DNA of 64,000 nt from assembly GCF_001565895.1 (NCBI RefSeq), contig NZ_LSNE01000003.1:788380-852379 (forward strand), written 5' to 3'. Made by a program: the position numbers and the translations under genes. Below are positions 29,538-44,583 of the stretch, piece by piece (position 1 is the stretch's first letter; the number at the start of each line of letters is the position of its first letter). The DNA comes from Paraglaciecola hydrolytica. GTDB taxonomy: Bacteria; Pseudomonadota; Gammaproteobacteria; Enterobacterales; Alteromonadaceae. The notes beneath the pieces are model-generated. The model saw nothing but the letters and a program-made list of their open reading frames with translations, was not told the DNA's origin and searched no databases.

Positions 29538-30299
29538 TTAGCTTTGCTCAGTATAGACATAATCACTTAAGCCAAGTTTATTCAATATTTCATCCAAGTG
29601 GGCTAAGGCCTCGTCACTGGGGCCGGGATAATCACCGGCGATTGGCACGTTACCTAAATAACCAATCTCTTTAGTGCCTTGCGGCGAACAGAAAAACGCG
29701 GCTAAAACCAGTTGGCGGAAAACGCTAAAAGCACCCGCTATACGGCTAAATTCACTAGGTGTTTGCTCAGTCTGATAGGCAATATCATCCATAATGGCAA
29801 ACTGTTGCTCGGTTTTTAAGGCGACAAATTTTTGCCCAAAACGCAAAGCCGCTTCGTCATCTATCCAGGCTAGGGTATTGAGTATATTGGGCCTGTCGTT
29901 CTGTTGTCTTTCATACGGAGCACTGACCCACTCGTCAATAACATCAGGCACATTAACTTCACTGGCCGAGGGAATATCACCATCCCGAGGTACCAAAATA
30001 TCAGAGAGCATGGCCACTAAAGTCAGTTGTTCTGCGTTTAAGGTGCGTGGCCAGGCAGAGCGGGGTGGAATGATTAAATTGGGATCTTTGCCATAACCAA
30101 CACTACTAATTGGCGTAAGCTTTAAATCTGGCCAATGGCCTACAACAGATGAGGTAATAGAAGTTGAATTGGGAGTGCAAGCCACCACGCCCGGTAATAC
30201 TGCGCTGGCCGCCAAAACACTTAACCACTTAAGTGAGTCGCGGCGACTCATGGTAGGCAAGTAGTGATAAGCTTTACTATTGGGTTGATTATCACTCAT
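29538..30299 (-). CDS. gluconate-2-dehydrogenase subunit-3-like protein (Tat-exported)
   Basis: 253 residues. A twin-arginine motif SRRDSLKWL (Arg19-Arg20) is followed by a hydrophobic stretch and a lipobox-like VVAC (Cys41), so it is probably a Tat-exported lipoprotein. The mature part matches the gluconate_2-dh3 family (LTLVAMLSDILVPRDGDIPSA; QGTKEIGYLGN near the C-terminus). These proteins are the small partner of a flavin GMC dehydrogenase and are needed for its export or maturation. The GMC gene is immediately upstream, with a 1-nt gap. Confidence 0.9.
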   Translation of the reverse strand: MSDNQPNSKAYHYLPTMSRRDSLKWLSVLAASAVLPGVVACTPNSTSITSSVVGHWPDLKLTPISSVGYGKDPNLIIPPRSAWPRTLNAEQLTLVAMLSDILVPRDGDIPSASEVNVPDVIDEWVSAPYERQQNDRPNILNTLAWIDDEAALRFGQKFVALKTEQQFAIMDDIAYQTEQTPSEFSRIAGAFSVFRQLVLAAFFCSPQGTKEIGYLGNVPIAGDYPGPSDEALAHLDEILNKLGLSDYVYTEQS

Positions 30300-30300
30300 C

Positions 30301-31980
30301 TTAGAGCACTCCTTGTTGAATTTGCCCAGCTAACCAGTTGGCATTACGCATGGCTAAGGTCATGATGGTTAAGGTGCAGTTTTTGTGGGGGTTAGAGGCA
30401 AATACGCCGGCGTCCATGACAAACAAATTGGCGCAATCCCAAGTCTGGCCCCATTGATTGGTCACCGAATCTTGTGGTGATTCGCCCATACGAGTGGTAC
30501 CTACTTCATGGATAATTTGCCCACCTTTGAGAATGGCTTTTTCAGGCTCTGGCAGTTCACCTACTTCAGCACCCATAGTGGTTAATATGTCTTTAGCGGT
30601 TTGTAATCCATGAGCAACCTGATTGATTTCATGTTGTGACCAACGCCAATGAAACTTAGCTACTGGAATGCCCCATTTATCGCTGACTTGGTCGTCGATT
30701 TCCATGTAACAATCATCGTTTGGTAACATTTCACCCCGTAAGGCAAAACTGACTGAAGCACCATAATTGGCTTTTGCTTCGTCTTTTAATGCTTTGCCAT
30801 AACCTTGAAAATTGCCTGAAACCCAAGAGCCTGGTGCGCTAAAACCACTGCCAATTTCAAAGTGATAACCTCGGGGAAAATTCAATTCACCACGTGCTTG
30901 TGCCTCATGCCCCCACCACGGCACAAACAAATGGTTGGCGGTATGGCCATCTTCGTTATAGCGCGGTCTATTGCGTAATAATGGAATTTGCGCTCCGATA
31001 CCTGCGCCGGTTGAATCCATCAAATTACGCCCAACTTGTTTGCTTGAATTGGCTAAACCTTGGGGATGTTTAGGGCTTTTTGAATTGAGCAACAAACGCG
31101 CAGACTCACAAGCACTGGCCGCAAGGATCACTACACGGGCACTGAGTTTATGTTCAGTAGCGGTAGTTTTATCGATATAACTTAGGCCTGTCACCTTGCC
31201 TTCTGCATTAGTATCTATCGCTCTCACCATGGCATTGGTGATCACTTCAAGTTTACCGGTGGCTTTAGCCATGGGCAGTAATGATGTAGTAGTTTGAAAA
31301 GCAGCACCTATGGAACAACCACGACCACAAGGGCTGGCATAAAAACATTTAGCACGATTATCTAAAGGCTGCGTTAAAACGGCACGGTGCATGGGTGCCA
31401 GAGGTATGCCGAGCTTTTTCGCCGCCGCCGCCACCAACAATTCGGGGATTCTGGGTTTGGGGGGTGGCTGTAATACTCCTGGAGCAGAGTCCGGCATATC
31501 ATCTAAACCTGTATTGGTGCCACACACACCAACAAGTGCTTCGGTTTTATCATACCAAGGGGCAATATCCTTATACTCAAAGGGCCAATCTGCACCTAAA
31601 CCATCGCGGCTTTTACCTTTAAAGTCATGTTCACTAAAACGCAGTGAATAACGACCCCAGTGATTAGTGCGGCCACCCAACATACGCGAGCGCCACCACA
31701 TAAAATCACTTCCTTCGGCACTGGTATAGGGTTCGTCTGGCACAGTCCAGCCACCGTCAACGGTGGCATCATAAAAACCAAAGTCTTTATCAACATTACC
31801 TGAGCCCAACAGAGGCGCATCGGCATTACGATGAAACATCGGGGTTTCAGTTAAAGGGTCGTAATCACGGCCGGCCTCCAGTAAAAGAACCTGAATACCC
31901 GCTTTGGTTAGCTCATAAGCCGCCATAGCGCCACCTGCTCCGGAGCCAACAATGATGACATCGTGCTTAAGTAAGGCCAT
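30301..31980 (-). CDS. GMC-family FAD oxidoreductase (sugar dehydrogenase)
   Basis: 559 residues. The FAD-binding dinucleotide motif (IIVGSGAGGAMAAYEL) is at residues 9-24. A Cys motif PCGRGCSIGAA lies near 218. The GMC C-terminal signature (EVGTTRMGESP ... NPHKNCTLTIMTLA) carries the catalytic His/Asn region. There is no own signal peptide, so it probably travels to the periplasm with its Tat-bearing subunit-3 partner. The relatives are periplasmic sugar or polyol dehydrogenases; with the DUF1080 gene beside it, oxidation at C3 of a glycoside is the best guess. It overlaps the DUF1080 stop by 1 nt. Confidence 0.92.
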   Translation of the reverse strand: MALLKHDVIIVGSGAGGAMAAYELTKAGIQVLLLEAGRDYDPLTETPMFHRNADAPLLGSGNVDKDFGFYDATVDGGWTVPDEPYTSAEGSDFMWWRSRMLGGRTNHWGRYSLRFSEHDFKGKSRDGLGADWPFEYKDIAPWYDKTEALVGVCGTNTGLDDMPDSAPGVLQPPPKPRIPELLVAAAAKKLGIPLAPMHRAVLTQPLDNRAKCFYASPCGRGCSIGAAFQTTTSLLPMAKATGKLEVITNAMVRAIDTNAEGKVTGLSYIDKTTATEHKLSARVVILAASACESARLLLNSKSPKHPQGLANSSKQVGRNLMDSTGAGIGAQIPLLRNRPRYNEDGHTANHLFVPWWGHEAQARGELNFPRGYHFEIGSGFSAPGSWVSGNFQGYGKALKDEAKANYGASVSFALRGEMLPNDDCYMEIDDQVSDKWGIPVAKFHWRWSQHEINQVAHGLQTAKDILTTMGAEVGELPEPEKAILKGGQIIHEVGTTRMGESPQDSVTNQWGQTWDCANLFVMDAGVFASNPHKNCTLTIMTLAMRNANWLAGQIQQGVL

Positions 31981-32678
31981 TAGTTTAGCTCCTTGATTTT
32001 GATATTTTTAAACCACACAACATCACCATGATCTTGCAAACCGATATGGCCTTGTTTGCCTGTACCAAAACCCTCCCAAGTGGCAAATTTACTGTTGGCA
32101 ATCAGTTTGTCCCAAGTGCTACTGCCAATAACTATGCTGGTGGTAATGACCTCATTTTGCCAAATCTGCAAATGATTATCTTGTAAACGAATACGCACCT
32201 GATTCCACTCTCCAGCGGGTTTAAAGCTCGAAGAAGGGGAGGCGACCATGTCATATAAAGAACCAGAACTATGAGAATCAATTTTATTATCAGAGTGGCG
32301 CTCATTGTCTAAAATTTGAATTTCTGGCGCGTGAGAATAAACGTATTTACCACTTTCGTCTGCCATGATTAGAATGCCACTATTGCCACCTTCAGCGATT
32401 TTCCACTCTAATTTTAAATCAAAATTGCTGTAGCTGGTCTTAGTGAGAATATCCCCCGCACCCGGCGCACTTAACTTGAGTGTGCCACTGTCAGTTGTCC
32501 AGCCAGGGTGTAAACTTTGTTGTTTAAAATTGCGCCATTGCGAAAGATCGCTGCCATCAAATAACAACTGCCAGCCTTCGTTTTGTTCTTGTTTAGTCAG
32601 TTGGTTGTCAGCGGCTAAACCAGTACAACTGTACATTGCCATTAATAAGCCAAACGAAAAACCGGTAAGTACTTTCAT
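31980..32678 (-). CDS. DUF1080 / 3-keto-disaccharide hydrolase domain protein
   Basis: 232 residues with a signal peptide (~1-23, ending GLAAD). The rest is one LamG-like jelly-roll of the DUF1080 type: WQLLFDGSDLSQWR at the start, GGNSGILIM with a conserved acidic partner, and HIGLQDHGDVVWFKNIKI at the end. Characterised DUF1080 proteins cleave 3-keto-glycosides by an elimination-type reaction. It is first in the three-gene operon with the GMC oxidoreductase and its small subunit. Which sugar is used cannot be read from the sequence. Confidence 0.9.
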   Translation of the reverse strand: MKVLTGFSFGLLMAMYSCTGLAADNQLTKQEQNEGWQLLFDGSDLSQWRNFKQQSLHPGWTTDSGTLKLSAPGAGDILTKTSYSNFDLKLEWKIAEGGNSGILIMADESGKYVYSHAPEIQILDNERHSDNKIDSHSSGSLYDMVASPSSSFKPAGEWNQVRIRLQDNHLQIWQNEVITTSIVIGSSTWDKLIANSKFATWEGFGTGKQGHIGLQDHGDVVWFKNIKIKELN

Positions 32679-37089: not shown

Positions 37090-38187
37090 CTAACTATGAG
37101 CTAATTCTTGCATCAGGGCTAAAAATGCCTGCACAGATTCCAGTGGCGCTGACTCAGACATAGTGTGATAACCACTTGATGGTATCTGCAAGGTTGTACC
37201 GTCTACCAAGCCGTTCGAAGCCGCGATAATTCGCCCCATTTCCGTTGAACCAAAAGAAGACAATGGCTCACCTTTTTGCTCTTGAATAAGATGTTGAGCA
37301 GCAACGTATTCGTCTTTAAATTGGTAAGTGATACCCAAACGTTGGCAGATTTCAACCAAGGTCTGATTGAGCTGGGGATTAAAATCAGCGTTGGCATCTT
37401 TATTACGCAATACTAACTGCTGTTGTTTAGCAGTGGGTAAGTCTGGATACGGACTGGTATCTACCACAATCAATTTATTGGTTGAGCCGCCAAAACGTCT
37501 GAACCATTCAAGCAAATAGCGCCAGCTTTTCCCTGCTTCTTCTTGGGCGGTAAAAAACGCTGTACCCTGAAATCCACCCTCAAACAAATGTACTAAGGCT
37601 GCAGTTGTTAATACGTTATCCAACTGGCCAACCAAGGCTTGATCAGTAATGGTGAGTTTATCGGTAAAGGCTACTGGGGTGCCGGCAACTAAGTGCTCTA
37701 AGCCTTCGACTTGAAAGATTAAGTTATTCCGAAACTCACAGATATAGGCTCCTTTAATTTTGCCACAACCGCGATAGGCTCCCGACCAGGGCTCAAAGGC
37801 ATATACTCCTTCAGCATCAAAGCGATTGACGATTTTTTGCATCAGTGACTCACTTACCGAGTTACCTAATAAATCAGAACGTGCCCCTGCTACAAAAGCG
37901 GCATATTGAAACTCGTTTGGACCTGTGCAAACCAAACCATGGCGGTCGATATGGGCTGAAAACATGCGTGAATCGGGTTTGTTGCCTTGCGCCACCAGCA
38001 GACCTTCGTACCATGTGACCTTGGCGCCACGCTCTTCCAATTCCCGTTGCAGTACCCGAAAAAAAGAATGCTCTGCTCCCGTTACACTTGGGCTACGTAT
38101 CAAGGTGCGTAATAACTCAATAAAAGACTCTGGTAAGTCGTGTGATTGATTTGTCAATTTGCCTAAAGTCTCTGTGCTACTACCCAC
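37090..38187 (-). CDS. M42/M20-like metallo-aminopeptidase
   Basis: 365 residues starting at GTG with AAGGA upstream. Dimetal ligands of the M28/M42 fold are all visible: AHIDRHG (His, Asp), GQLDNVLTT (Asp), AQEEAG (catalytic Glu and metal Glu), VVDTSP (Asp) and YHTMSE (His). It is predicted to be a cytoplasmic aminopeptidase or peptide amidase with a dodecameric-type domain insert. It lies 9 nt downstream of the glutathionylspermidine gene, and the whole operon codes for amide-bond makers and breakers, so the substrate may be a product of its neighbours. That link is inference. Confidence 0.85.
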   Translation of the reverse strand: MGSSTETLGKLTNQSHDLPESFIELLRTLIRSPSVTGAEHSFFRVLQRELEERGAKVTWYEGLLVAQGNKPDSRMFSAHIDRHGLVCTGPNEFQYAAFVAGARSDLLGNSVSESLMQKIVNRFDAEGVYAFEPWSGAYRGCGKIKGAYICEFRNNLIFQVEGLEHLVAGTPVAFTDKLTITDQALVGQLDNVLTTAALVHLFEGGFQGTAFFTAQEEAGKSWRYLLEWFRRFGGSTNKLIVVDTSPYPDLPTAKQQQLVLRNKDANADFNPQLNQTLVEICQRLGITYQFKDEYVAAQHLIQEQKGEPLSSFGSTEMGRIIAASNGLVDGTTLQIPSSGYHTMSESAPLESVQAFLALMQELAHS

Positions 38188-38196
38188 TGCAATTCC

Positions 38197-40086
38197 TTAC
38201 GTATCTAAAAATGATAAATCATCGTCAATTCTTAACGCCATACAATCACTGTCTTTGCCAATAATCATCGAGCTATCGACTCTTACACCACTACCGGCAT
38301 AATTACCTGCGGCGGTAAAAGTGCACACTTGCACATAATATTTGCCTACTTTAGGTAGGGCAAAAAGCTGTTGATATATTTGTGTCCGATCAGCAAAAGC
38401 ACCTCCTTTGTCAGCTAACACCTTGTTGTTTTTATCAATAAGTTGAATGTTAGCCCCACAGCGACCCACTATGGGTTTAACCACGTAGCCACTTGCTTCT
38501 AACTCTGGACTAAGTTCAAAGCTGGTGTTCAATAATAAAGGATGGTTTGGAAATAGTGACCAAAGAATTGGCAATATAGCCTTGTTACTTGGTATAAGGG
38601 TCCAGAGTGGTTCAAACACCATGATTTCTTTTCTGAGTAATACATCACTTAAATTTGGCACACTTCCGGGGGGGCGAATTTTATCGCTGATGGTTTGTTG
38701 TGCATCTTGCTCTGTACGCAGTTGATCTAGGGCGGTTTCCCATGCCCAGGTTTTCCATACCCACTTAACCTTGTTGCCATTAACATCGACGATGTCGCCT
38801 TGTTCATTCCAACTGAGTGAGCTTAAACCGACAACTCGCTCACACTTATGACCTGCCGCTTCTATGGCAGACAACATAAATAGGGCATGGTAGTCCTCTT
38901 CCGGATCGGTATCTTGTAATACATGAACCAAACCTTCTACTTCACTTTCGCGCCACGCTTTAACGAGCTCTGCAAATAGCGTAGAGCCCGCATCTTCACC
39001 ATGTTTTAGGCCTAAATGTTTAGCCCACTTACCCTGCACCTTGCCGGTTTCCATATAACAAGAGGCGGAGTCACAGTTGTACTCGTAAACTTTCAGCCCC
39101 TTATCTGACATCGAAAAATCAAAACGGCTGGTGATCAATTGATTGAGGCGGTTATCCCAAGACTGGCGGATACGCGGTAAAATGGATGCAGGCAAACCAA
39201 AAGACTCGACTAACTCGTCATGCTGCAACACATATTCAGTGGCATGCATAAATAAACCGTGTAACTCATCGGTGGCAGACTCCAGGGCTTCCTGAGCCGT
39301 TTGTGATAACAAGTAATAATTTAAATGGTCTTCTGCAACTGAGGTAAGCCAATGGCCTTGCATCATATCCACATAGGCAGCTTCATCATCATTGGCAATA
39401 TTTAACCACGGTTTTAAGGCTTGTGGCGACGAATGTGCAGTGGCAGGTTTTAAGTTAAATAACTCTTGCTGTTCTGGCTCTAAAATTTCGCCATGACTTG
39501 TATCATCGGTTTGGATCATCCAGCCTAGTATGGTTGCATCACTAAACGAACATTCGATCCAAAAATCGTTTTCACGGCCTATTTTGACTTTAATCTCACG
39601 GGAGTAATCTCGCCCCTCTGGCCAGACGACAAAATCCATATTTTGCTCAACAATACGCACGTAGTCATCGCTAACTTGGGTAATAATCGCCACATGGCCG
39701 GTATTAACAAACTCTCCACCTTCTTCCCAAATGAGTAAACTGCCTACTTCTGGGTGACGCTGGGCGCCATTTTTATAAGCTTGCAAGGGTAAAAGTTCAT
39801 TGGTGGCAACCTCGCGTACCGAGCGCAAATTAAAAATCTCATAGGCCATAGATACATCATTAAAGATATAACCTTGGTTGATGTACAACCAACGACGGGC
39901 AAATTCCACACATTGCCATTTATACCCCATATAAATGCCATCATAGTAACTGCGATAAGCACTTCGATTGGGATAAATATTGGGATCGGCGGAATCATAA
40001 TCACTGGAATATGAAATGACACCGCCGGGGGCGGTGCCAAGTTCAGTGCCAAAAGGCGTAACAGCTAACTCTATTTTATGTGGCAT
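38197..40086 (-). CDS. gss: bifunctional glutathionylspermidine synthetase/amidase
   Basis: 629 residues (Escherichia coli GspSA 619). The N-terminal CHAP amidase has its catalytic Cys59 (YKWQCVEFARRWL) and His131 (NTGHVAII) at the same positions as in the Escherichia coli enzyme. The C-terminal ATP-grasp ligase (~215-620) carries FDFSMSDKGLKVYEYNCD, where the substrate and Mg are bound, and KPIVGRCGANI. The enzyme joins glutathione to spermidine and also breaks the bond, and can reverse glutathionylspermidine marks on proteins. It is the third gene of the operon, 32 nt after the alpha-E gene. Confidence 0.95.
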   Translation of the reverse strand: MPHKIELAVTPFGTELGTAPGGVISYSSDYDSADPNIYPNRSAYRSYYDGIYMGYKWQCVEFARRWLYINQGYIFNDVSMAYEIFNLRSVREVATNELLPLQAYKNGAQRHPEVGSLLIWEEGGEFVNTGHVAIITQVSDDYVRIVEQNMDFVVWPEGRDYSREIKVKIGRENDFWIECSFSDATILGWMIQTDDTSHGEILEPEQQELFNLKPATAHSSPQALKPWLNIANDDEAAYVDMMQGHWLTSVAEDHLNYYLLSQTAQEALESATDELHGLFMHATEYVLQHDELVESFGLPASILPRIRQSWDNRLNQLITSRFDFSMSDKGLKVYEYNCDSASCYMETGKVQGKWAKHLGLKHGEDAGSTLFAELVKAWRESEVEGLVHVLQDTDPEEDYHALFMLSAIEAAGHKCERVVGLSSLSWNEQGDIVDVNGNKVKWVWKTWAWETALDQLRTEQDAQQTISDKIRPPGSVPNLSDVLLRKEIMVFEPLWTLIPSNKAILPILWSLFPNHPLLLNTSFELSPELEASGYVVKPIVGRCGANIQLIDKNNKVLADKGGAFADRTQIYQQLFALPKVGKYYVQVCTFTAAGNYAGSGVRVDSSMIIGKDSDCMALRIDDDLSFLDT

Positions 40087-40118
40087 CGTTTTCCAGTATG
40101 AAAGTCACCATGACGGTA

Positions 40119-41048
40119 TTAAGTATGGAAAAAATAGGTCTGATTGATTTTGTCAAAAATGGTATTTAAACCAAGTTGCATATCATCAATAAACTCATGC
40201 AGTTTTTCCTGAATTAAGCTCTGTGGATTGGCATCCAATAGTTGAGTTTCAACTACCCGGATTTGCATGATAATTTCTTCATGATTTGGTAAGGTTTTTA
40301 AACAATGTTCGACTTGTCGCAATGCATGTAATAAGGAACGAGGGAATCTATCTTCTAATAATAAAAATTTTAGGACGTCTGGACGACGGATACGTAAACG
40401 CACTTCACGTCGATACATTTGATACGCAGTCAGTGACTTGAGCACACTCATCCACTGAATGTTTTCAAAGGCCGACTGTGAGGTTTCAGTATCTTGCAAT
40501 AATGAGGCTGAACGCACATCAATGATGCGAGTGGTCATGTCGGCTCTTTCTAAATTACGCCCAATACGCAAGAATTCATAACCCTCATCATGGGTCATAG
40601 TTCCCGCTAATATGCCGGTAATAGTTTGATTTGACTGAATTATTTCACTCAAAAAACCGTAACGTGAGCGTCTAGCCTGGGCTTTTTGACAGTTTTCTTT
40701 AGCATAGGAATAGAGCTCATTGATTCGTTCCCACGACTCTCTTGGAATAATCTCGCGAACTGTGCGAGCGTTCTCGCGCGCTGCGCTTAAAGAGCTAATG
40801 ATTGAGCCATGGTTTTTTTGATCGGCAACCATAAAGTTAATCACATTACGTTCAACGGCCTCTTTATGAGTGGAATAAAACAGTTCTCGGTACGACAAAA
40901 TATCGACTATGGGCTCCCATCCCAAGGAGATACTTCTCGGTAAATCTAACAATAAATTAGAATTAACATTAATCAAACGTGCGGTATTTTCAGCACGCTC
41001 CAAATATCTTCCCATCCAACATAGGTTATTGGCGACTCTTGATAACAT
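40119..41048 (-). CDS. alpha-E domain protein (DUF403)
   Basis: 309 residues, all alpha-helical, with the family opening MLSRVANNLCWMGRYLERAENTARLI-like (start LSRVANNLCWMGRYLERA) and conserved acidic helices (FLRIGRNLERADMTTRIIDVR). Alpha-E proteins occur beside circularly permuted ATP-grasp proteins and are predicted partners in an amide-ligase system; no activity is shown. It starts 2 nt after the ATP-grasp stop, so the two are tightly coupled. Confidence 0.93.
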   Translation of the reverse strand: MLSRVANNLCWMGRYLERAENTARLINVNSNLLLDLPRSISLGWEPIVDILSYRELFYSTHKEAVERNVINFMVADQKNHGSIISSLSAARENARTVREIIPRESWERINELYSYAKENCQKAQARRSRYGFLSEIIQSNQTITGILAGTMTHDEGYEFLRIGRNLERADMTTRIIDVRSASLLQDTETSQSAFENIQWMSVLKSLTAYQMYRREVRLRIRRPDVLKFLLLEDRFPRSLLHALRQVEHCLKTLPNHEEIIMQIRVVETQLLDANPQSLIQEKLHEFIDDMQLGLNTIFDKINQTYFFHT

Positions 41049-41050
41049 AA

Positions 41051-42505
41051 TTAAGATCCCTCCATATCAACGATCCAGGTATCTTTACTGCCACCACCTT
41101 GTGAAGAATTCACAACCGTGGAGCCTCTTATCATCGCGACTCTGGTTAAGCCTCCTGTGGTCACTTTGACGTCTTTACCACTGAGGATAAAAGGACGTAA
41201 ATCCAAATGACGAGGTTCTACTTTGGTATCTACCATAGTCGGTGCTGTAGACAGTATTAACATCGGTTGCGCCACATAATTGCGTGGGTCTTCTTGGATT
41301 AATTTACGGAATTTTTCATGTTCTTTGGCATTAGAGTGTGGGCCAATTAACATGCCGTAACCGCCAGACTCATTGGCCGGTTTGACCACCATAGAAGCAA
41401 TGTTTTCTAATACATACTCACGTTCTTTTTCATTTACACATTTATAAGTCGGCACGTTGGGTAAAATGGGCTCTTCATTTAGATAATATTTAATAATGTC
41501 AGGCACAAAGGCATACACCACTTTATCATCAGCAACTCCTGAACCTGGTGCATTGGCAAGAGCAACATTGCCCGCCTTCCAAGCCCGCATGATGCCTGGT
41601 ACGCCTAGAGTTGATTCTGGATTAAATACTTCTGGATCAAGAAACCAATCATCTATGCGCCGATAAACCACATCAACCCGCGAGAGGCCATTGATGGTAC
41701 GCATATAAACACAATCATCATCGCCGACCACTAAATCGTTACCTTCAACTAACTCTGCGCCCATTTGCTGGGCTAAATAAGCATGTTCAAAGTAGGCTGA
41801 GTTATAAATGCCGGGAGTGAGTACCACGATTTCTGGTTCGGCAATGTCTCTAGGTGACATGGCTGCCAACATGTCGTAAAGGTCAGAAGGATAATCATCT
41901 ACTGGCAGTATGTTGAGTTTTTCAAACATTTCTGGGAAAACTCGTTTCATCACCTGACGGTTTTCCAGCATATAAGATACCCCAGAAGGTACTCTGAGGT
42001 TGTCTTCCAGTACATAAACCACGCCTTGATTATCACGCACTAAGTCAGAGCCACAGATGTGCGCCCACACCCCTAATGGCGGGCTAAAACCTTTGCATTC
42101 AAGGAGGAAGTTTTTGGATTTATCCAATAGGTCGGCGGGAAAAATGCCATCTTTGATGATGTTTTGGGCATTGTATAAATCATCAATAAACATGTTTAAG
42201 GCTTTAACACGTTGTTTTAAACCAATTTCAATATCTACCCATTCTTTTTTATCAATGAGCCTAGGAATAATATCAAAGGGCCAAGCACGATCTATCGAAC
42301 CTTCTTCGTCATTGTAGACCCGAAACGTGATACCCATGACATGAATGGCGGAATCTGCAGCGGCTTTATATTCAATAATCTCTGCGTCAGATAAGTCTCG
42401 CAAATAGCTACACAAATCATCTGCATAGGCTCTTGGTTTACCACTAGCTCGCAGTAGCTCGTCATGCAGATTTGCTACTTTATAATTTCCCCATCGAATA
42501 GCCAT
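41051..42505 (-). CDS. circularly permuted type-2 ATP-grasp protein
   Basis: 484 residues from the ATG at 42505, which has AAGGGG just upstream; a longer frame to 42574 adds a Cys-rich lead that is not part of the family. Family landmarks are GFSPPLGVWAHICGSDLVRD, VYVLEDNLRVPSGVSYMLENR, VVKPANESGGYGMLIGP and the C-terminal GGLTRVA. It is predicted to be an ATP-dependent carboxylate-amine ligase; the substrate is unknown. Comparative genomics has tied this family to alpha-E proteins, transglutaminase-like proteins and Anbu, which is the next gene, divergent. Confidence 0.93.
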   Translation of the reverse strand: MAIRWGNYKVANLHDELLRASGKPRAYADDLCSYLRDLSDAEIIEYKAAADSAIHVMGITFRVYNDEEGSIDRAWPFDIIPRLIDKKEWVDIEIGLKQRVKALNMFIDDLYNAQNIIKDGIFPADLLDKSKNFLLECKGFSPPLGVWAHICGSDLVRDNQGVVYVLEDNLRVPSGVSYMLENRQVMKRVFPEMFEKLNILPVDDYPSDLYDMLAAMSPRDIAEPEIVVLTPGIYNSAYFEHAYLAQQMGAELVEGNDLVVGDDDCVYMRTINGLSRVDVVYRRIDDWFLDPEVFNPESTLGVPGIMRAWKAGNVALANAPGSGVADDKVVYAFVPDIIKYYLNEEPILPNVPTYKCVNEKEREYVLENIASMVVKPANESGGYGMLIGPHSNAKEHEKFRKLIQEDPRNYVAQPMLILSTAPTMVDTKVEPRHLDLRPFILSGKDVKVTTGGLTRVAMIRGSTVVNSSQGGGSKDTWIVDMEGS

Positions 42506-42606
42506 TGGAACCCCTTGCTGGTTATTTGAACATCTAGTATACGGACAACAGAATTGTTTTAAAGCTGCTTTCATGCCAAAAATATTATTTGTAATTCTAG
42601 TGGAGC

Positions 42607-42626
42607 AGAGACAAAATGCTGTCTCT
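42607..42626. promoter_or_regulatory. dyad in the divergent Anbu / ATP-grasp promoter region
   Basis: A perfect inverted repeat AGAGACA-N6-TGTCTCT in the 197-nt region between the two divergent starts. Size and position fit a dimeric repressor or activator site serving both directions. No regulator gene is next to it. Confidence 0.4.
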
Positions 42627-42702
42627 AGATGATCAATTTTGGGTCATTCTTTCGTTCCCCTTAAATGAATAAGCCCAACTATAGTGCAGTGAGAGAGTAG
42701 CG

Positions 42703-43449
42703 TTGACATACTGTTTAGCAATTAGCGTAAATAAAGGTTTAGTGTTTGCTTCTGATTCGCGCACTAATGCTGGGGTCGATTATGTGGCGACCTACAGTAA
42801 AATGACCACTTTTGTCTTTCCACAAAATCGCAGTTTAGTATTATTAACCTCTGGCAGCTTAGCTACATCTCAAGCAGTGATTAATGCGATTAAGACCGAT
42901 CTTAATGATCCTGATGCAGAGTTTAATTTATGTAAGGGTAAATATTTACATGAAGTAGCCAAGTACATCGGCCAACTGAGTCAAAAAGAACAAAAGCAAC
43001 ATGCTGAAGCCATGGAGAAATCCAAGGCTAGTTCTGAATCGAGTTTTATCCTAGGTGGACAAATTGCCGGTCAACCCTGTGAGATCTTTTTGATTTACCC
43101 TCAGGGTAACTACATTACCGCGTCTACAGAAACGCCTTATTTGCAAATTGGCGAAAATAAATACGGTAAACCCATACTAGACCGCATTGTCAGTGCTAAT
43201 ACCTCATTAGAGGACGCCGCACGTTGTGCCATCGTCTCTTTAGATTCAACCATCAGAAGTAATATATCGGTGGGTCCTCCGATAGAATTGGCCATTCATA
43301 GCAACAACGTGATCGAAGCTCCTTACCGTACTTCACTGAGTAACAACAGTGTGATGTATAAATCGGTACAGAAGCATTGGAATGAAGGTTTAAAGCGCGC
43401 GTTTAATAAATTGCCGCGCTTTGATTGGGAAAAACCATCGGCAAAATAG
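42703..43449 (+). CDS. Anbu proteasome-like peptidase
   Basis: 248 residues starting at TTG. After Met removal the N-terminal residue is Thr1 (TYCLAISV), with Asp17 (SDSRTNAG) and Lys32 (YSKMTTF) in the positions of the proteasome active site. The length and C-terminal extension fit Anbu, the ancestral beta-subunit family, not HslV (~175 residues); no HslU or other ATPase is nearby. Known Anbu assembles as an open helical or ring structure; its natural substrate is unknown. It is divergent from the ATP-grasp/alpha-E operon, the usual Anbu context. Confidence 0.93.
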   Translation: MTYCLAISVNKGLVFASDSRTNAGVDYVATYSKMTTFVFPQNRSLVLLTSGSLATSQAVINAIKTDLNDPDAEFNLCKGKYLHEVAKYIGQLSQKEQKQHAEAMEKSKASSESSFILGGQIAGQPCEIFLIYPQGNYITASTETPYLQIGENKYGKPILDRIVSANTSLEDAARCAIVSLDSTIRSNISVGPPIELAIHSNNVIEAPYRTSLSNNSVMYKSVQKHWNEGLKRAFNKLPRFDWEKPSAK

Positions 43450-43486
43450 CTAAATTAACCTGGACTATGGGCAGGTTAATTAGCTA
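43447..43486. terminator. convergent hairpin between Anbu and zinc-peptidase genes
   Basis: TAGCTAAATTAACCTG (43447-43462) pairs with CAGGTTAATTAGCTA (43472-43486) with a single bulged A and a 9-nt loop. It spans the stop of one gene and the 3' end of the other. AU-rich lower stems could act as U-tracts in both directions. Confidence 0.5.
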
Positions 43487-44583
43487 TGACGTTGCTGATA
43501 AACATCGTCATTCTGTAATACCACTTGATGTACAAAACGTAATTTATCTAGCGCGCTGATAGGGATGACAAAAGGATAGGCATCATCTAAGCCCATACTT
43601 CTATTTAAGCCATTTAATACCGCGGTTAGTCTACACCAGTCATTAAACAAATGAGTAAAGCTGGTGGCAGTGTACACTTGGTCGTGCTGACCACTGGCAA
43701 CCAAGGGGTTGGCTACCTTGTTACCCGATACACTAAAATCAAAATCACTGGCCGTTTCAAGAGTATCCACCATGTGCAGATAATGGGCCCAGGTTTCAGC
43801 CCAATCTTCCCACGGATGCATACTGGCGTAGGCTGTTACCCATACATTCTGCCAGTTTTGTTTTGGTCCATTAGCATAATAATCTTGCATGGCCTGTGAA
43901 TAGTCTATACGTTCATCACCAAATAAAGCACGAAAAGGCTCAAGTTGAGAACTGTTTTTAATGAACCTATCCCAATAATAATGACCAGACTCGTGACGAA
44001 AATGCCCAATTAAAGTGCGGTAATTTTCATTTAGGCTTTCACGTATTTGTAGGCGAGAACTGTGCTGGGCTTCATTCACATTGATGGTAATGATGCCTGC
44101 GTGGTGACCAGTATTAACGTAATTTTTAACCGTTAACTCATTGCCAAATTCATCTTTGACTTGATCCTCTAAAAACTCAAAACCCAGCCCAGTAAGAGGT
44201 TCGTCGCGACGATTCACTACAGGCAGTTTGAGTTTATACAAGGTATATAGTAAACGACGTTTGGCTTGTTCTAAGCGATACCAAAGCCGTTTGTTGTGTT
44301 CAATATCTAGATTGGGAATGACTTCATTAAGCTGACAGGCCTGACAATAGTCATGAGTTTCATCAAAGGGGATCATCCAGTTACAGACATTGTAATCAGT
44401 GTAGTTTTTACATTGACGATATATCCGGCCGTTACTGGAAGCTTGCAAATTGTCAAAACGATTACGAGTGAAAGCACTTAGTTGCACATCATCGGGTAAA
44501 AAGCCCAATAATAAACCACAAACTACACATTGGCTGTTGGCAAAATGTAGTTTATTGCCACATTGACAAACAAAAGTTTTCAA
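43480..44583 (-). CDS. zinc-ribbon HExxH putative metallopeptidase (COG4307-like)
   Basis: 367 residues from a TTG preceded by GAGGA. Two Cys4 zinc sites are visible (Cys6, 8, 19, 22 and Cys58, 67, 80, 83). The catalytic-type motif HESGH (His197, Glu198, His201) sits in RHESGHYYWDRF, with a later Glu/Asp-rich WEDWAETWAHYLH that could give the third ligand. No signal peptide, so cytoplasmic. Relatives are listed as putative zinc-binding metallopeptidases with no known substrate. It faces Anbu tail to tail across 30 nt. Confidence 0.85.
   Translation of the reverse strand: MKTFVCQCGNKLHFANSQCVVCGLLLGFLPDDVQLSAFTRNRFDNLQASSNGRIYRQCKNYTDYNVCNWMIPFDETHDYCQACQLNEVIPNLDIEHNKRLWYRLEQAKRRLLYTLYKLKLPVVNRRDEPLTGLGFEFLEDQVKDEFGNELTVKNYVNTGHHAGIITINVNEAQHSSRLQIRESLNENYRTLIGHFRHESGHYYWDRFIKNSSQLEPFRALFGDERIDYSQAMQDYYANGPKQNWQNVWVTAYASMHPWEDWAETWAHYLHMVDTLETASDFDFSVSGNKVANPLVASGQHDQVYTATSFTHLFNDWCRLTAVLNGLNRSMGLDDAYPFVIPISALDKLRFVHQVVLQNDDVYQQRHS

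Follow-up and report, generated by a model that had tools for sequence, protein, structure and literature searches.

Anbu, a proteasome-like Ntn hydrolase, has solved structures and, in the accessible portions of the literature examined here, no reported substrate. Its gene set is already known; what differs at the locus described here is an extension of that set by GspSA and M42-like genes, and the question is whether extension and known set serve one pathway. The locus lies in a 64,000-nucleotide stretch of the Paraglaciecola hydrolytica genome, which we call the window. Its minus strand carries, in ascending coordinates, an M42-like metallopeptidase (M42; 37090-38187; PF05343), the bifunctional glutathionylspermidine amidase/synthetase GspSA (38197-40086; NF007801, with CHAP amidase and GSP_synth domains), an alpha-E protein (40119-41048; PF04168, 312.9 bits) that is the single such match in the whole genome, and a circularly permuted ATP-grasp protein of 484 aa (41051-42505; PF14403/PF04174, with PF14403 at 554 bits). 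Anbu follows on the plus strand from a TTG start (42703-43449), and beyond it the minus strand carries a protein with a zinc ribbon and a Peptidase_Mx domain (43480-44583; PF10005 plus PF15887, HExxH at residues 197-201). The Peptidase_Mx gene and the ATP-grasp operon run in the same direction and flank Anbu, which is read from the opposite strand.

The original prediction, that these genes make and remove a peptide or polyamine-type conjugate in one pathway with Anbu as a degrading or trimming arm, was built on gene calls that held. All six reading frames stand and match the family models assigned to them, the gaps of 2, 32, and 9 nt separating ATP-grasp, alpha-E, GspSA, and M42 were confirmed on the sequence, and Thr1, Asp17, and Lys32 of Anbu are all present. 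One start was revised: the ATP-grasp gene, placed at 42574, most likely begins at 42505, as in most relatives, which leaves a divergent intergenic region of 197 nt (42506-42702) up to the Anbu start. That Anbu start codon is at the same position in all of 23 aligned loci, as TTG, GTG, or ATG. A promoter and terminator scan against shuffled sequence gave no clear excess (15 vs 19.4 and 8 vs 6.9). A foreign composition of GspSA and M42 was considered and rejected, as their G+C contents (43.7% and 45.5%) are near the 43.1% of the window. A defence role was likewise rejected; the only PADLOC match among the six proteins was a weak one, between alpha-E and a CARF model (E 2.8e-4). Two genes past M42, with a chemotaxis receptor gene between, lies a JmjC/cupin oxygenase-like gene (PF08007; 33876-35060).

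The individual proteins are for the most part recognizable. Anbu matched five distinct PDB sequences at E≤0.001, three of them named Anbu, with 5loy scoring best at 252 bits, and two, 5lox and 5nyw, named Peptidase; we take 5nyw to be an Anbu structure as well. In PMC8665760, 5lox is termed Anbu. By sequence, the window protein is closest to solved Anbu chains rather than to HslV or 20S. GspSA scored 919.5 bits against the NCBIfam equivalog model NF007801 (cut-off 882) over both domains, and residues 10-618 aligned with E. coli Gss (PDB 2io7; 626.9 bits), again over both domains and with the amidase Cys/His/Glu aligned. Cys59, His131, and Glu147, which we take to be the amidase catalytic residues, are present. 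GspSA is thus an equivalog of the ordinary glutathionylspermidine enzyme, differing from E. coli Gss in gene context alone, in that it stands behind alpha-E. The Peptidase_Mx protein has PF15887, PF10005, and the HExxH motif. The M42-like protein is more distant from its namesake. It matched PF05343 above cut-off but with a weak score (E 3.9e-7, 29.9 vs 23.2 bits) over the 124-residue stretch 168-291, and its candidate metal ligands H79, D81, D190, E216/E217, D243, and H341 are invariant in 20 homologues; the order H-x-D, D, EE, D, H is presumably the metal-ligand pattern of peptidase family M42. It belongs to a subfamily of its own, with members 64-91% identical to the window protein. A single-sequence PDB search gave no match at E 0.001, a 20-sequence profile found MJ0555 as its best PDB match (E 0.038), and an AlphaFold2 model built from only four close sequences had a mean pLDDT of 51 and was discarded as unusable.

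To place the locus, we searched a family sample of 246 genomes, which gave hits for GspSA in 21 (E≤1e-100), alpha-E in 50 (E≤1e-70), M42 in 36 (E≤1e-10), and Anbu in 25 (E≤1e-10), and read the 50 best alpha-E loci, with lower-scoring second alpha-E copies outside the count. Genomes and loci are labelled with G and L numbers, respectively, and G000 is the window genome. Identity to the window alpha-E splits the 50 loci into 26 at ≥59% (type A) and 24 at ≤50% (type B). The predicted linkage of Anbu and the HExxH protein with ATP-grasp and alpha-E was borne out in type A: Peptidase_Mx stands with ATP-grasp/alpha-E in all 26, and Anbu is in the block in 23, being absent from G029 and G171 and located elsewhere in G023. 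In several loci of high G+C content, including L251 to L256, greedy ORF calling overlooked Peptidase_Mx, and tblastn was used in its place. Four type-A loci beyond the sample (G005, G012, G004, G019) also all carry Peptidase_Mx; G004 and G019 are without Anbu, and G005 has GspSA and M42 added. Of all genes in type-A loci, Peptidase_Mx accompanies alpha-E/ATP-grasp most consistently, and it travels with Anbu-bearing loci more than transglutaminase, GspSA, or M42 do. Because type-A loci carry Peptidase_Mx and usually Anbu, the window core is an ordinary local version of the known Anbu operon. In G029 and G171, which have no Anbu, the ATP-grasp/alpha-E operon starts directly with Peptidase_Mx; in the window, Anbu therefore seems to have been inserted, in opposite orientation, between this first gene and the rest of the operon. 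In G156 (L250 9468-10384), the alpha-E gene next to Anbu, Peptidase_Mx, and ATP-grasp is broken into two frames, through a frameshift or an assembly error. In G023 (L082, L083), ATP-grasp, alpha-E, Peptidase_Mx, and GspSA stand together and Anbu is 1.3 Mb away on the same contig, adjoining a major facilitator transporter gene.

The second locus type has a different composition. Among the 24 type-B loci, none has Anbu; a ~290-aa transglutaminase is found in 22, a fused ATP-grasp/alpha-E protein in 22 with a piece of one in another, and a transglutaminase/DUF2126 protein in 21 within the fetched stretches (domain names come from one representative plus tblastn). The type-B locus of G127 consists of ATP-grasp and alpha-E alone. 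In 20 extended type-B loci, of which one stretch spans just 4 kb and one is without any match, Peptidase_Mx lies ~1.6-3 kb from the transglutaminase/DUF2126 gene in four. The original prediction had pointed out that the usual transglutaminase-like gene is missing here. No transglutaminase indeed occurs in the block (the window gives no tblastn match, and the four PF01841 places of the genome are all on other contigs), but this is normal for such loci in the family rather than exceptional. By tblastn, a ~300-aa transglutaminase lies a few genes off in type-A L073, L076, L077, and L081 and directly beside ATP-grasp in L087 and L089; among these, Pfam was run on the proteins of L077 and L087.

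In the wider phylum, the tie between Peptidase_Mx and alpha-E takes the form of broad co-occurrence, with adjacency in the type-A loci of this family. Among 383 genomes, alpha-E is present in 63 of the 64 with Peptidase_Mx vs 202 overall (Fisher 5e-19, uncorrected, from lists compared by eye). Among the matches listed, the two genes lie within ~5 kb of each other in at least seven genomes (G000, G023, G142, G376, G325, G580, G458). Twenty further Peptidase_Mx loci, picked for no evident link, had transglutaminase/DUF2126 nearby in 4 and no core gene in 16, one of which has a 101-residue GspSA-like match. In distant genomes of the phylum (L257, L260, L266), Peptidase_Mx and a transglutaminase/DUF2126-like gene are immediate divergent neighbours, which gives this metallopeptidase a second context. 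A limited literature search found none linking Peptidase_Mx/COG4307 with alpha-E and none joining Anbu with GspSA.

The GspSA/M42 tail behaves differently from the core. Within type A, GspSA is in the block at 3 of 26 loci (G000, G018, G023) and M42 at 2 (G000, G018), so that the claim that these two genes belong to the same pathway largely failed the test set with the original prediction; anywhere in the 26 genomes, GspSA occurs in 10 and M42 in 9. Among 60 near-relative genomes, the window's own included, Anbu was found in 11, full-length GspSA in 15, M42 in 13, and alpha-E in 20. The full composite occurs, in the genomes searched, only in G000, G005, and G018, three related species, and the tight packing was found in these three only. 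Nineteen further GspSA loci (16 from the family sample and 3 from the genus) have M42 adjacent in G127 alone and no core gene nearby. The best 80 of 242 GspSA loci, in named genomes, gave the whole block in 2 and M42 in the flank in 3, with flanks of 10 kb within which many contigs end. Two other GspSA flanks show a single core-like gene each: a partial ATP-grasp 9 kb off in Desulforhopalus (L179 3-638) and a 36% match to Peptidase_Mx 3.6 kb off in a Salinisphaeraceae MAG (L230 15471-16256). In another family, G049 (L084) has an M42-like gene 7.4 kb from Anbu. For the genomes sampled, GspSA and M42 are a lineage-specific, recent addition in one small marine clade and not a fixed part of the locus.

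What we observed is which genes are present and in what order, that the core is conserved, and that the addition is restricted to one clade of the sampled genomes. The explanation we favor, although we regard it as an even call, is that the locus has two layers, a conserved amide-ligase/hydrolase core and a recently added, perhaps co-expressed, thiol/peptidase pair. The core would be a transglutaminase-free form of the known Anbu/ATP-grasp/alpha-E operon, in which ATP-grasp and alpha-E may act jointly as an amide (peptide-type) ligase and Peptidase_Mx and Anbu may hydrolyse the product or substrates of that ligase. GspSA and then M42 would have been placed behind alpha-E in the ancestor of the three Paraglaciecola species, and would be transcribed on one message with the core and respond to the stress that induces it, which is probably nitrogen limitation or stationary phase. 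GspSA would make and cleave glutathionylspermidine as a thiol/polyamine reserve, M42 would trim peptides, and the two layers would have different substrates.

The nitrogen-linked ligase/hydrolase part of this explanation draws on findings in the accessible text of four papers. First, the ATP-grasp protein of the Yersinia Anbu operon released phosphate from ATP, no specific interactions were detected among the proteins of that operon, and Anbu was high under nitrogen starvation (PMC6376114). Second, the published Anbus that were assayed had no detected peptidase activity, and Thr1 binds proteasome inhibitors (PMC6376114, PMC5666114). Third, the B. cenocepacia cluster I35_5080-83, whose domain names are similar to those of type B, is NtrC-dependent; the DUF404/407-DUF403-transglutaminase cluster was 6- to 9-fold down in an ntrC mutant of this species, and in Burkholderia it depends on NtrC and sigma-54 (PMC5491218). 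Finally, DUF403/404/407 are tied to urea metabolism domains by abundance in marine metagenomes (PMC3597751). At the loci studied here, a simple scan of the Anbu/ATP-grasp region in 23 loci gave no convincing sigma-54-like site (best 6 of 10 positions, in L092), and this region thus lends no support to nitrogen control. Four further points count against our explanation. The authors of PMC5666114, in the part available, regard the inhibitor binding as consistent with protein degradation and as lowering the likelihood of a role of Anbu in peptide synthesis; beyond the family, Peptidase_Mx frequently stands apart from alpha-E (16 of the 20 chosen loci above); the partly conserved flanking order of the three species, described below, may by itself account for the persistence of the tail; and the links in G023 and G127, with the presence/absence associations described below, hint at a tie beyond co-expression.

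An unlikely alternative is that a rearrangement brought GspSA and M42 to their place behind alpha-E, where they are simply read through with no common function or condition. In five genomes of the same genus (G002, G007, G009, G012, G015), all six genes are present, but GspSA and M42 lie apart from the block, either on different contigs or at a great distance on the same one; both are thus away from the block in 5 of the 8 genus genomes with Anbu, GspSA, and M42, the window's included. The neighbours of GspSA and M42 change across loci, and in 19 other M42 loci no core gene was found in any. In the three linked species, the packing is similarly tight (ATP-grasp/alpha-E/GspSA/M42 gaps in nt: window 2/32/9, G005 2/27/6, G018 1/31/6). 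Their DNA is ~74-76% identical, the alignment stops ~30 nt inside the 3' end of M42, and the downstream genes differ: a chemotaxis receptor in the window, transglutaminase and DUF2126 followed by D-lactate dehydrogenase in G005, and D-lactate dehydrogenase in G018. On the flank opposite to M42, several genes are conserved among the three, and window positions 30168-32463 recur in G018 at and past the D-lactate dehydrogenase gene; because flanking order is partly kept, persistence of the tail may be plain synteny. Against fortuitous placement stand two part-linkages outside this clade, GspSA with ATP-grasp/alpha-E/Peptidase_Mx in G023 and GspSA with M42 in G127 (L172, Pseudocolwellia). A GspSA tree (61 rows, quick method, including 48 of the 80 named loci and leaving out L200-L230 and L154, a duplicate of L132) places the G000, G005, and G018 sequences in one clade (SH-aLRT 99), G023 with the unlinked G218 and G131 (100), and G127 with Amphritea (89), and an M42 tree of 30 rows, drawn from 26 of the 36 carriers in the family together with G005, G012, G046, and G049, sets G127 apart from the window clade. 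The GspSA groupings therefore imply three separate link events: core with GspSA and M42, core with GspSA, and GspSA with M42. With the window taken as given, the probability that eight lineages show one or more additional GspSA/alpha-E links within 5 kb is ~0.018, and that of a GspSA/M42 link in three lineages ~0.007, with distance and lineage counts chosen post hoc; the eight do not include a ninth, unlinked lineage (G004/G019), which would raise the first value slightly.

These part-linkages also bear on the single pathway of the original prediction, which we consider improbable. That pathway would have ATP-grasp/alpha-E and GspSA assemble a conjugate of peptide or polyamine type, for which glutathionylspermidine may be a substrate; trimming or removal of the conjugate would fall to Anbu, Peptidase_Mx, M42, and the amidase of GspSA. 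The co-directional packing kept in three species, the separate links in G023 and G127, and the association within the genus are consistent with such a role. Among 22 same-genus genomes, all 8 with Anbu have both GspSA (vs 4 of 14 without Anbu; p 0.0015) and M42 (vs 2 of 14; p 0.00014), p values that overstate the association because the eight represent about two lineages. In G005 (L071 4158-7265), the genes after M42 encode a transglutaminase of 289 aa and a DUF2126 amidoligase of 743 aa, so that the operon tail is longer there; this locus shows that amidoligase-type genes can join the GspSA/M42 tail. Family-wide, GspSA occurs with alpha-E in 13 of 21 genomes (expected 4.3) and 7 of 9 genera (expected 3.3, p 0.008), M42 with alpha-E in 23 of 36 genomes (expected 7.3) and 9 of 12 genera (expected 4.4, p 0.003), and GspSA with M42 in 8 of 21 genomes (expected 3.1, p 0.005) but 3 of 9 genera (p 0.34); overlaps were counted by eye and are uncorrected for kinship, sampling depth, and genome size. 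The genus-level values with alpha-E also weigh against fortuitous placement. Part-linkages and co-occurrence together are only suggestive of a shared role of GspSA, M42, and core, as kinship confounds them, and the rare joining of GspSA hints that the chemistry may touch glutathione or polyamines. By contrast, GspSA is absent from 23 and M42 from 24 of the 26 type-A blocks, a full-length GspSA is lacking altogether from 16 of the 26 type-A genomes, GspSA matches the ordinary enzyme, and the flanks of M42 vary. Very doubtful is the further proposal that glutathionylspermidine or a relative is the substrate or scaffold of the ATP-grasp/alpha-E ligase, with Anbu, Peptidase_Mx, and M42 as the hydrolytic arm of one thiol-polyamine-peptide conjugate cycle, although, if true, it would give Anbu its first defined chemistry.

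How, then, does the window compare with known systems? The known Anbu operon, as described in the accessible parts of PMC6376114 and PMC5666114, consists of ATP-grasp, alpha-E, transglutaminase, and Anbu. The window resembles it in that ATP-grasp, alpha-E, and Anbu are adjacent, as in the known operon, and Anbu has its active-site residues. It differs in having Peptidase_Mx instead of a transglutaminase in the block, Anbu on the opposite strand, and GspSA and M42 added; as the block has no transglutaminase, we file the window as a variant and not as the four-gene operon. The classical order of ATP-grasp, alpha-E, transglutaminase-like gene, and Anbu occurs in the order-mate G049, where the transglutaminase is a 28% tblastn match only. 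With the type-B cluster, the window has the ATP-grasp/alpha-E pair in common, whereas type B lacks Anbu in 24 of 24 loci and has transglutaminase genes and mostly a second, fused ATP-grasp/alpha-E. The survey points to ATP-grasp, alpha-E, Peptidase_Mx, and Anbu as the gene set in which to search for the Anbu substrate.
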